Of a stretch of 64,000 nucleotides of DNA, positions 25,774 through 28,867 are shown piece after piece; within the stretch, counting starts at the first letter, position 1; every line of letters starts with the position of its first letter. The DNA comes from Burkholderia singularis (GTDB lineage Bacteria; Pseudomonadota; Gammaproteobacteria; Burkholderiales; Burkholderiaceae), in assembly GCF_900176645.1 (NCBI RefSeq), contig NZ_FXAN01000004.1, positions 1 through 64,000 on the forward strand, read 5' to 3'. The notes under the pieces were generated by a model. The model was not told the DNA's origin and did no database searches. It saw nothing but the letters and a program-made list of their open reading frames with translations. The translations under genes were made by a program, and so were the position numbers.

Positions 25774-26178
25774 TCATCCGACGACGATCACGCCGTTCAT
25801 CGTCTCATGCCCGGCGCCACAGAAAATGTCGCACAGAAAATCGATCGTGCCACGCTCGCCCGCTTGCGCGGCAAGCCGCACGACGGCGCCCGGCGGCACA
25901 TCGGCGCGCACGCCAAGCTGCGGAATCGAAAAACCCATCACGGTGTCCTCGGCCGTCAGCTCGAACACTACCGCTTCGTGCGGCGCGAGCGCGATGCGGT
26001 TCGGCGTGAAAACGAAGCGGCGCGCATGAACCTTGATGACGCGCGGCGCGCCGGCCGCGCGCACGGTTAGAGCGGCGAGCGCGCAGATTGCCGCGCCGGT
26101 TGCGGCGAGCCAACGGCGGCGCGCCGGCTGCGCGGGCGATGGGCGTGCGATGAGAGCGGGCATGTCGGTGTCGGGCAT
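25774..26178 (-). CDS. Exported CuA-like cupredoxin with a substituted ligand
   Basis: This 134-residue protein has an N-terminal hydrophobic export or anchor segment (about 22-42) and a cupredoxin domain. The motif CDIFCGAGHETM (Cys116, Cys120, His124, Met127) matches the CuA loop of cytochrome oxidase subunit II, C-x3-C-x3-H-x2-M. The first CuA ligand, normally His in a D-x-x-H-G/S-F context, is here Met81 (EDTVMGFSIP). It follows the metallophosphoesterase gene by 24 bp on the same strand, so they form an operon. It could store or transfer copper or electrons outside the cytosol; no oxidase subunits are nearby. Confidence 0.82.
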   Translation of the reverse strand: MPDTDMPALIARPSPAQPARRRWLAATGAAICALAALTVRAAGAPRVIKVHARRFVFTPNRIALAPHEAVVFELTAEDTVMGFSIPQLGVRADVPPGAVVRLAAQAGERGTIDFLCDIFCGAGHETMNGVIVVG

Positions 26179-26202: not shown

Positions 26203-27171
26203 TCAATCTGCCTGGTGTTCGGGCGGCACGTCACGCATGCCGTTGGCATGGCCGGCGCCGTCGGCTTCGATCGGCCACTCGGTCAGCGTGAACGCGCCCG
26301 GCGCGTCGTCCGCGCGCACTTCGCGCCAGCCGAGCCCGCGATAGGGCGCGCCCGCGTCCCACGGCACCGGCAGACGCTTGGGTTGCGAGCCCGCGGCGGG
26401 CAGCGCAAACATCAGCGAGCGCGCGGCGTGGTGGGCGATATGGCCGGTCATCGCGTGATGAGTCTGATGGATGTGCCCGTAGAACACCGTCACGTTCGCA
26501 TATGGCATCAGCATCTCGAGCGCCTGGGCGCCGTCGCGCGTGGCCCAGTCCCATTGCGGCGCGAGATCGAACAGCGGCCGGTGGGTGAACACGACGATGC
26601 GCGCGTCTTTCGGCAAACGCGCAAGATCGCGGGCGAGCCAGTCGATCTGCGCGTCGCCGACGCGGCCGGCCGGGTCGGACACGTTGTCGAGCACGATGAA
26701 GTGCACGCCGTGGCGATCGAACGTGTAATGCGTGTCGCCGAAGATCTCGCGATACGCGTCGCCGGCGTCGAGGCTCGCGTCGTGTTCGCCCGGCATCAGA
26801 TACAACGGTTTTGCGTCGAGCCGCGCGACGATCGAGCGGAACTCGCGCATCCGTGCACGGCGCTCGGCCGCATCGTCGGTGGTATGCGTGAGGTCGCCCG
26901 TGAAGATTACGAAATCGGGCGCGACGGGCAGTGCGTTGACGGCGGCAATCGCCTTGGGCAGCGTGCCTTTCGGATCGGGATTGATCGCCGGGCTCGCAAA
27001 CCCCCAATGCGCATCGGACAGTTGAACGAAAAAGAAATCGGCATCCTTGCCGAAGCTCCAGCCGGGCAGCGCGGATGCGAACGCCGCGCCGCCCCCTGCG
27101 GCGGCCAGGCGCAGAAAGTCGCGGCGGCGTAGCGAGCGGATTGACCGGGGCGGTTTGAGAGGCTGTCGCAT
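26203..27171 (-). CDS. Tat-exported metallophosphoesterase
   Basis: This 322-residue protein begins with a twin-arginine signal (SLRRRDFLRLAAAGGGAA, about 14-31). The calcineurin-like phosphoesterase domain shows QLSDAHWG (Asp53, His55), FTGDLTH, PGEHD in place of the common GNHD, THRPLFD and GHIHQTHH. These residues form a dinuclear metal site. Tat export suggests the metals are loaded in the cytosol before transport. It precedes the CuA-like cupredoxin gene, and the pair is divergent from an ECF sigma gene sharing a matched promoter. Substrate unknown. Confidence 0.9.
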   Translation of the reverse strand: MRQPLKPPRSIRSLRRRDFLRLAAAGGGAAFASALPGWSFGKDADFFFVQLSDAHWGFASPAINPDPKGTLPKAIAAVNALPVAPDFVIFTGDLTHTTDDAAERRARMREFRSIVARLDAKPLYLMPGEHDASLDAGDAYREIFGDTHYTFDRHGVHFIVLDNVSDPAGRVGDAQIDWLARDLARLPKDARIVVFTHRPLFDLAPQWDWATRDGAQALEMLMPYANVTVFYGHIHQTHHAMTGHIAHHAARSLMFALPAAGSQPKRLPVPWDAGAPYRGLGWREVRADDAPGAFTLTEWPIEADGAGHANGMRDVPPEHQAD

Positions 27172-27205: not shown

Positions 27206-27234
27206 CCAACCGGCAGAGGCCGGGCTTTATTCCC
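27206..27234 (-). promoter_or_regulatory. Predicted ECF promoter for the phosphoesterase-cupredoxin operon
   Basis: On the minus strand, GGGAATAAA (27234-27226), 13 bases, then CGGTTGG (27212-27206). The same -35 and the same spacing occur on the plus strand 31 bp away, before the sigma gene. The predicted leader to ATG 27171 is about 25-30 bases. Confidence 0.65.
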
Positions 27235-27265
27235 GGTTTATTTTTCATGTCCGGCCGTGCGGGAC

Positions 27266-27294
27266 GGGAATAAACTCGACGCACCTCCGGTATG
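27266..27294 (+). promoter_or_regulatory. Predicted ECF autoregulatory promoter
   Basis: GGGAATAAA (27266-27274), 13 bases, then CGGTATG (27288-27294). The leader to the sigma start at 27367 would be about 65 bases. It mirrors the divergent promoter at 27206-27234. Confidence 0.65.
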
Positions 27295-27366
27295 AGTTTC
27301 GAATGAGGCGGCTGGCGACAAGCGATTCGCCTTGCTGCGCGGATCGTGCGCCGGAAAGGGGGATGC

Positions 27367-28008
27367 GTGGACGAGGACGGTCGGCAGGTCGGCGGCAACG
27401 ACGCGGATAGCGCGGCGCGCAGCCTTCGGTTCCAGCAGCTCGCGCTGCCGCATCTGGATGCGGCGTACAACCTTGCCCGCTGGCTGTGCGGCAATTCGCT
27501 CGACGCCGACGACATCGTGCAGGAGGCGTTCATGCGCGCATTGCGCTTTTTCGATTCGTTTCGCGGCGACAGCGCCCGCCCGTGGCTGCTCGCGATCGTG
27601 CGGCACACATGGTATGACGAATGGCGCCGGCGCGCGTCGGCGCCGGAGGTGGCGGCATACGACGACGAGCGCGACGCGGTGGCGCCCGACGGCTGGGGCG
27701 TCGGCATCGACGATCCGCAGACGCTGCTGATCCGCGCGGAGGACGCGAGGCTCGTGCATGCCGCGCTCGAGCGTTTGCCGGCCGCGTATCGCGAGGTGCT
27801 GGTGCTGCGCGAGATGGAGGAGCTCAGCTATCGCGACATCGCGGCGATTGCGGGCGTGCCGGTCGGCACCGTGATGTCGAGGCTTGCGCGGGCCCGCGCG
27901 AAACTCGCTGGCGCGCTTGCCGGCGTGCGCGCGAATGAGGCGCGATTGGCGGGCTCGTGCGCCTCGGGGGCAGGCGGTGGGGCATCGGAGGCTGTCGATG
28001 GACTGTAA
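27367..28008 (+). CDS. ECF-type RNA polymerase sigma factor
   Basis: This 213-residue sigma factor has region 2 (NSLDADDIVQEAFMRALRFFDSFRG and RPWLLAIVRHTWYDEWRRR) and region 4 (LERLPAAYREVLVLREMEELSYRDIAAIAGVPVGTVMSRLARAR). I choose GTG 27367, which has AAGGGGGA at good spacing; GTG 27346 is in frame but lacks one. The stop overlaps the anti-sigma start by 11 bases. A matching promoter upstream suggests autoregulation. Confidence 0.93.
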   Translation: MDEDGRQVGGNDADSAARSLRFQQLALPHLDAAYNLARWLCGNSLDADDIVQEAFMRALRFFDSFRGDSARPWLLAIVRHTWYDEWRRRASAPEVAAYDDERDAVAPDGWGVGIDDPQTLLIRAEDARLVHAALERLPAAYREVLVLREMEELSYRDIAAIAGVPVGTVMSRLARARAKLAGALAGVRANEARLAGSCASGAGGGASEAVDGL

Positions 28009-28867
28009 CGAAACGCGCGCGCTGCTCGGCGCGGATCTCGATCGCGAATTGCCGCTGCTCGATGCGCGGCGCGTCGCGCGTCACCTCGACGGGTGCGCGT
28101 TGTGCCGTGGCGAGCGCGATGCGCTGGCGGCGCTCGGCCGCGCGGTGCAGCTTGCCGATTACCATCGCGCGCCGCCGGCGTTGTACGCGAAGATCGTTGC
28201 GTCGCTGCCGGGTGCCGATGCACGGGATGCACGGGCGTTGCGATCGCGGCTCGCTGCCGCGGCCGGAGTTGCGTCGCGCGTTTGGCAAGGGCTGCGCGGG
28301 CGCGCGCCGGTGAGCAGGGCGGCTCGCGATTTCACGCCGATGGCCGCCTTCGCGCCTGGCGCCGCGTGGCTGGCGGCCGCTGCGCTCGTCGCGGGCGCAG
28401 CCGCTGGTGTGGCGTTCACCGCGCACCGCGGCGCGGATGACGCGTTGGTCGCGGAGCTAGTGTCGAGCCACGTTCGCGCGGCGCTGTCCGGGCACGACAT
28501 CGACGTTGTGTCGACCGATCGGCATACGGTGAAGCCCTGGTTCAACGGCCGCCTCGACTATGCGCCGCCCGTCGTGGATCTCGCGTCGAGCGGCTTCACG
28601 CTCGCGGGGGGGCGGCTCGATTATGTCGGCGGTCGGCGGGTGGCGGTGCTGGTCTACCACTACCGGCGGCATGTCGTCGACGCTTATGTATTCCCGATGC
28701 AGGGCGGCTCGAGCAGCAGCGCCGATTCGGCCGTCGAGCAGGGTTATGCGCTGGCGCGCTGGTACGCGGGCGGCATGACGTGGTGGGCTGTCACGGATGC
28801 CGAGCCGGGCGCGCTTGCCGCGTTCCGCGCGGCCCTGGCGGCGAATCTGCCGCCTACGGGGCAGTAA
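27998..28867 (+). CDS. Membrane anti-sigma factor
   Basis: This 289-residue protein starts 11 bases inside the sigma gene, implying coupled translation. Its N-terminus has the zinc-binding anti-sigma signature H-x3-C-x2-C (His29, Cys33, Cys36 in RHLDGCALC). A single membrane segment lies at about 121-141. The C-terminal 145 residues would be periplasmic and contain two PxxDLASSGFTLAGGRLDYVGG-like strands typical of ChrR/RsiW-type transmembrane anti-sigmas. It should hold the sigma factor at the membrane until an envelope signal appears. Confidence 0.9.
   Translation: MDCNETRALLGADLDRELPLLDARRVARHLDGCALCRGERDALAALGRAVQLADYHRAPPALYAKIVASLPGADARDARALRSRLAAAAGVASRVWQGLRGRAPVSRAARDFTPMAAFAPGAAWLAAAALVAGAAAGVAFTAHRGADDALVAELVSSHVRAALSGHDIDVVSTDRHTVKPWFNGRLDYAPPVVDLASSGFTLAGGRLDYVGGRRVAVLVYHYRRHVVDAYVFPMQGGSSSSADSAVEQGYALARWYAGGMTWWAVTDAEPGALAAFRAALAANLPPTGQ

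Follow-up and report, generated by a model that had tools for sequence, protein, structure and literature searches.

Back-to-back candidate ECF promoters between a sigma factor and a phosphoesterase-cupredoxin operon in Burkholderia

Introduction

Can one ECF sigma factor drive both its own operon and a divergent operon for an exported enzyme and a copper-type protein? The question is raised by a 64,000-nucleotide stretch of Burkholderia singularis DNA (contig NZ_FXAN01000004.1, positions 1 to 64,000; hereafter the window), for which a preliminary description had proposed twin ECF promoters facing away from each other and a single sigma factor acting on both, forming a compact envelope-stress regulon. 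Here we examine these sites in the window, in the host genome and in relatives, and ask which genes travel with them.

Results

Twin sites in the window and the host genome

Scanning the window for GGGAATAAA-N13-CGGTWKG returned two sites, back to back, with 31 bases (27235-27265) between them: GGGAATAAAGCCCGGCCTCTGCCGGTTGG on the minus strand at 27234-27206 and GGGAATAAACTCGACGCACCTCCGGTATG on the plus strand at 27266-27294. The elements had thus been described with exact coordinates, orientation and spacing, and 100 dinucleotide shuffles of the window gave 0 matches. The four flanking genes were likewise identified as described, namely an ECF sigma factor, a zf-HC2 anti-sigma factor, a calcineurin-like phosphoesterase and a Cupredoxin_1/COX2-type protein. 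The features are as follows.

25774..26178, minus strand: CuA-like cupredoxin, loop CDIFCGAGHETM, Met at the first His ligand position, Cupredoxin_1/COX2-type
26203..27171, minus strand: calcineurin-like phosphoesterase MPE1, twin-arginine signal, PGEHD replacing GNHD
27206..27234, minus strand: candidate phosphoesterase-side ECF promoter, −35 GGGAATAAA at 27234-27226, −10 CGGTTGG at 27212-27206
27237..27246, minus strand: UP-element-like A-tract, GAAAAATAAA on the minus strand, directly upstream of the phosphoesterase −35 (from the sequence)
27266..27294, plus strand: candidate sigma-side ECF promoter, −35 GGGAATAAA at 27266-27274, −10 CGGTATG at 27288-27294
27367..28008, plus strand: ECF sigma factor, NF009185/PRK12533, GTG start, open frame from 27346
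27998..28867, plus strand: anti-sigma factor, HxxxCxxC zf-HC2 N-terminus, one hydrophobic segment at about residues 122-142

The sigma factor scored 328.3 bits against NF009185, for which the curated cut-off is 248, and contains only sigma70 regions 2 and 4 (PF04542 and PF08281). Its likely start is the GTG at 27367, behind GGAAAGGGGG, rather than the open frame's first GTG, at 27346. The ATG of the anti-sigma gene (27998) overlaps the sigma stop, and the C-terminal part of the anti-sigma factor is presumed to be periplasmic. A possible UP element is the A-tract that precedes the phosphoesterase −35. By eye, comparable A-tracts were noted, uncounted, in many Burkholderia and Paraburkholderia loci.

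The genome scan for GGGAATAAA-N13-CGGTWKG, which the preliminary description had called for, found just the window's two sites in the host genome (G000; 5,538,112 bases, 135 contigs), and the reversed-pattern control found 0. A looser pattern, GGAATAA-N12-16-CGKTNNG, matched 4 places (the twin sites and 2 more) versus 2 for its reversed control, so that the 2 extra places are at chance level. Neither the exact nor the looser scan yielded further regulon members in this genome beyond the twin sites, and the second phosphoesterase found in other Burkholderia (MPE2, below) is absent from it. Eight matches to the ECF sigma model show that other ECF sigma factors exist in this genome, leaving room for cross-talk with them.

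A GGAATA-N17-GT core is conserved on both sides

Using the phosphoesterase as query in named genomes, we kept the best 80 of 130 relatives. A sigma homologue adjoins the phosphoesterase in 71 of these best 80 loci, in three gene orders: 65 divergent, 5 with phosphoesterase, cupredoxin and sigma on one strand, and 1 in which sigma and anti-sigma precede the phosphoesterase, all on one strand. Eight of the 9 loci without an adjoining sigma belong to Holophagaceae/Geothrix (L109-L111, L113-L117; phosphoesterase 53-60% identical); these showed no cupredoxin match, and 0 of 8 carried the exact site within 400 bp upstream. The ninth (L102) had no sigma match.

The exact letters of the double motif are not conserved, and TTTATTCCC-N15-45-GGGAATAAA occurred in the host genome only among 150 family genomes; what is conserved is the core, GGAATA-N17-GT. 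Allowing at most one mismatch in GGAATA, this core lies on both strands in 57 of the 65 divergent loci of named genomes, against an average of 0.14, and at most 1, in a shuffle control (200 dinucleotide rounds over the 65 loci). Paired sites without mismatch occur in 39 of 65 (shuffle maximum 0). The back-to-back arrangement persists in numerous beta-proteobacteria. Taken alone, the sigma side has the core at up to one mismatch in 58 of the 65 and the phosphoesterase side in 63; the eight loci lacking the pair at this threshold are L062, L073, L075, L079, L083, L084, L085 and L108. The 5′ ends of the two −35 elements are mostly 32-37 bases apart, with a range from 4 to 48. As for the six same-strand loci, the 320 bp before the phosphoesterase contain the site in two (L103 and L106), and the other four have no site at either gene. 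L216, a relative from a Rhizobium plasmid with about 50% identity in sigma, shows the sigma-side site, and its 7.5-kb region gave no phosphoesterase or cupredoxin match.

Within the genus, GGGAATAAA lies about 90-120 bp upstream of sigma in 30 of 30 loci. The phosphoesterase was linked to sigma in just 2 of these 30 first genus loci examined; the reading of this count as a rare link was misleading and was corrected once a second operon had been found.

The same site marks operons elsewhere in Burkholderia

We scanned 65 Burkholderia genomes for targets in trans. The pattern GGGAATAAA-N12-14-CGGTAWG matched in 46 of the 65 (reversed control, 2 matches) and revealed a second recurring site, which in all 5 such loci examined precedes a Tat-type phosphoesterase, MPE2, and a second cupredoxin. 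MPE2 is about 36% identical to MPE1; at one of the five loci (L118) the families were Metallophos and a plastocyanin/amicyanin-type cupredoxin. With GGGAATA-N15-CGGTA we obtained 124 sites in 57 of 65 genomes versus 4 for the reversed control. Looking no further than 200 bp upstream of each gene, we found the exact site at 54 of 57 sigma genes and at 46 of 51 MPE2 genes but, because MPE1 promoters vary, at only 3 of 7 MPE1 genes. Four of the five MPE2 genes without it (G154, G165, G202 and G205) carry GGAATA-N17-GT; the fifth is that of G157.

The remaining 21 sites are spread over 18 genomes, and 14 of these 21 regions were examined. Eight of the 14 sites, in eight genomes, precede a cytochrome b561 gene (L204-L209, L212 and L214); seven of the products were translated, two of which were Pfam-checked (PF01292), and for L212 the assignment comes from the first codons alone. 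In the 80 named loci, no cytochrome b561 was found. Three further sites, in three genomes, precede a gene for a multi-hydrophobic protein (L147-L149), and the one tested, from L148, had no Pfam or NCBIfam match. The exact sites at L210, L211 and L213 have no obvious downstream gene.

Sigma and the two phosphoesterases are distributed in step

With sigma called present at E up to 1e-40, 57 of the 65 Burkholderia genomes have it, 8 have MPE1 (one partial) and 51 have MPE2; none of the 65 has both phosphoesterases. Among the 57 sigma genomes, 7 have a neighbouring MPE1 and the other 50 a distant MPE2. Fisher tests that ignore phylogeny gave 3.4e-7 for sigma with any MPE and 6e-7 for the exclusion of the two MPEs.

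Six of the eight sigma-less genomes have neither MPE, and in them LysR is followed directly by rpsF with no module match between. The other two are G171 (82% complete, LysR not found), which has MPE2, and G172, which keeps MPE1 remnants. In G172 (L194), a close relative of the window with a 99% identical LysR, a deletion has removed sigma, the two promoters and the front part of the phosphoesterase gene, so that the end portion of that gene now abuts the end portion of the anti-sigma gene; the cupredoxin match is in two overlapping pieces. The exact site is absent from eight genomes: seven of the eight sigma-less ones, plus G157, where the −10 of the sigma is a variant.

A sigma tree of 47 rows (37 with MPE2, 7 with MPE1 and 3 outgroups carrying MPE1) requires at least two changes between MPE1 and MPE2 labels, forced by starred branches. 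MPE1 is likely the ancestral state, because the outgroups and most early branches have it, with a weakly supported root and one outgroup falling beside the host genome. Seven genomes (G154, G156, G157, G161, G165, G205 and G208) have a second sigma near MPE2; the three such regions that were read (L190, L191 and L192) have GGAATA-N17-GT at both MPE2 and the second sigma, and a second anti-sigma. Six of them are early branches inside the large MPE2 group, G205 standing apart as a separate case, and 0 of 30 rows of the derived MPE2 group have a second sigma at the same threshold. G214, outside the tree, has a second sigma located elsewhere.

It seems from this distribution that, in most Burkholderia examined, the neighbouring pair was replaced by an analogous pair elsewhere under the same promoter. 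The order we infer is that a module with its own sigma would have arrived, after which the local pair, and then the second sigma, would have been lost and the old sigma would have taken over. Few-contig assemblies, for example G110 (two contigs) and G134 (four contigs), have the sigma and MPE2 operons on different contigs, so in these examples the two probably lie on different replicons.

An unusual phosphoesterase with a constant partner

Calcineurin-like phosphoesterases usually have Asn in the GNHD motif. All 41 aligned phosphoesterases (alignment A1) have Glu in its place, that is, GEHD, and PGEHD occurs in 78 of the 80 loci. The fold is calcineurin-like with GpdQ and Rv0805 as best matches, which do not settle the substrate; the module's enzyme differs from the GpdQ/Rv0805 class in having GEHD rather than GNHD, a Tat signal and a cupredoxin partner. 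Tat export, proposed from the outset, is consistent with the sequence, R16 being invariant and R17 present in at least 90% of 41 homologues.

The cupredoxin had been called CuA-like, which fits in one respect and fails in another: the CxxxCxxxHxxM loop is present (68 of 71 loci), but the first His ligand position is Met, both in the window and in 58 of 71 loci (L038-L108). Twelve loci, mostly the more divergent ones, have His there. Compared with the CuA of cytochrome oxidase subunit II and nitrous oxide reductase, the module's protein mostly has Met for the first His and has no oxidase attached. A natural fusion, P0106, holds phosphoesterase and cupredoxin in one 395-residue protein. A metagenome assembly (L108) may have a similar in-frame join of the two.

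Discussion

Comparison with known systems

One close likeness is with the ECF26 sigma factors of Sinorhizobium, whose mapped promoters have −35 GGAATA and −10 GT in the excerpted text of PMC6180224; both elements are found in the window sites. By our own count on the printed S. meliloti rpoE4 promoter, 17 bases separate GGAATA from GT, as in the window. According to the portions available of PMC6180224 and PMC3511301, RpoE1, RpoE4 and RpoE6 (ECF26) resemble the module in having a downstream membrane anti-sigma and a small regulon, and RpoE4 controls a cupredoxin (pseudoazurin), a sulfite oxidase and a cytochrome c. In the same portions, the ECF26 targets differ from ours in not being a phosphoesterase-cupredoxin pair. 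rpoE6 is described as divergent from its target, as is the window's sigma, and on that description the general scheme of an ECF sigma that regulates itself and a divergent target is already known (PMC6180224). The window's sigma is 37.8% identical to an S. meliloti pSymA RpoE6-type match (residues 42-178), versus about 38% to enteric RpoE types.

Within Burkholderia, the excerpted PMC2194791 presents EcfG (BCAL1947) of B. cenocepacia as an ECF sigma that is accompanied by an anti-sigma, has no known role and is precisely deleted in B. vietnamiensis G4; the excerpt names neither targets nor a promoter for it. This precise deletion resembles the module loss in six genomes here, and EcfG, likened by description, may be the window's sigma. 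Searches of open-licence literature found no paper joining an ECF sigma with a phosphoesterase-cupredoxin pair, an absence that weighs little given that licence scope, and no described function for the NF009185 family.

Weighing alternative readings

It was proposed that one sigma drives both operons, and the comparison supports this: the paired sites recur in 57 of 65 divergent loci with the 17-bp geometry, the same site marks the trans operons, and it is missing from seven of the eight sigma-less Burkholderia genomes. The twin sites are very probably ECF promoters, and the comparisons argue strongly that they belong to the adjacent sigma. We consider it highly likely that the region controls a four-gene ECF module, both operons of which are run by one sigma. 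That two short motifs should look alike by chance has negligible probability: shuffled and reversed controls count against it, as does conservation in many genera, and for the conserved set we rejected it on the shuffles. An operator for a separate transcription factor, in place of two −35 elements, would account for the inverted GGGAATAAA repeat and for its similar spacing in most loci (32-37 bases between the 5′ ends). It is nonetheless very improbable, and we rejected it, since the spacing ranges from 4 to 48, single halves stand in sense direction before MPE2, sigma and b561, and a downstream GT at fixed distance is conserved along with the −35; the site also agrees with the mapped ECF26 promoters.

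A little less improbable, though still unlikely, is that the promoters are real but that another ECF sigma is the main user of the phosphoesterase promoter. Further ECF sigmas occur in the host genome, a second sigma is linked to some MPE2 operons, and S. meliloti ECF26 sigmas overlap in their targets in the excerpts of PMC3511301 and PMC10880074; against this, 57 of 57 sigma genomes have an MPE, the exact site is absent where sigma is (7 of 8), and core and spacing are common to both genes in those 57 of 65 loci. More weight, though well below even odds, goes to the possibility that the exported phosphoesterase releases carrier lipid or another envelope phosphoester, which would make this true envelope stress as first proposed. 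B. subtilis offers the model, with UpsH (YpbG) a metallophosphoesterase in the regulon of the ECF sigma SigM, and its authors suggest seeking others in envelope-stress regulons (PMC11898649, in excerpt). Such a role would leave the constant cupredoxin partner and cytochrome b561 unexplained. UpsH, likened here by description, is also assigned to a different phosphoesterase group (COG1408), and the excerpted text of PMC11898649 mentions no cupredoxin partner.

Proposed mechanism and meaning

Under the one-sigma reading, the anti-sigma factor, with a zinc-finger cytoplasmic end, one membrane segment and a periplasmic end, would hold sigma until a periplasmic signal arrives. Freed sigma with RNA polymerase would then use both divergent promoters, each with GGGAATA and a 17-bp distance between GGAATA and GT. 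One would raise sigma's own operon, and the other would yield a Tat-exported phosphodiesterase-like enzyme and a CuA-like cupredoxin that would act jointly beyond the cytoplasm. The same sigma would run the distant pair in trans in most of the Burkholderia examined. As to the signal, our guess is periplasmic redox or copper-linked stress; cytochrome b561, as a candidate target, points at least as much to periplasmic redox stress as to envelope stress.

More tentatively, and with something less than even confidence, we propose a widespread periplasmic copper-phosphodiesterase stress system in which a Glu-site phosphoesterase and a His-to-Met CuA-like cupredoxin act as one unit under their own ECF sigma. 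In Burkholderia, the local target would have been lost at least twice, sigma taking over an analogous distant operon that had arrived with its own sigma, and the two-sigma genomes would represent the intermediate stage.

For the ECF sigma family NF009185, these results supply a promoter signature, together with candidate targets and a series of genomes that serve as natural knock-outs. They open to testing the pairing of phosphoesterase and cupredoxin, which has persisted in different genera despite changes in gene order and despite the apparent substitution of an analogous pair. They also offer a readable case of a sigma factor that appears to have changed its target, the local operon lost and a similar distant one adopted, with likely intermediates still present.
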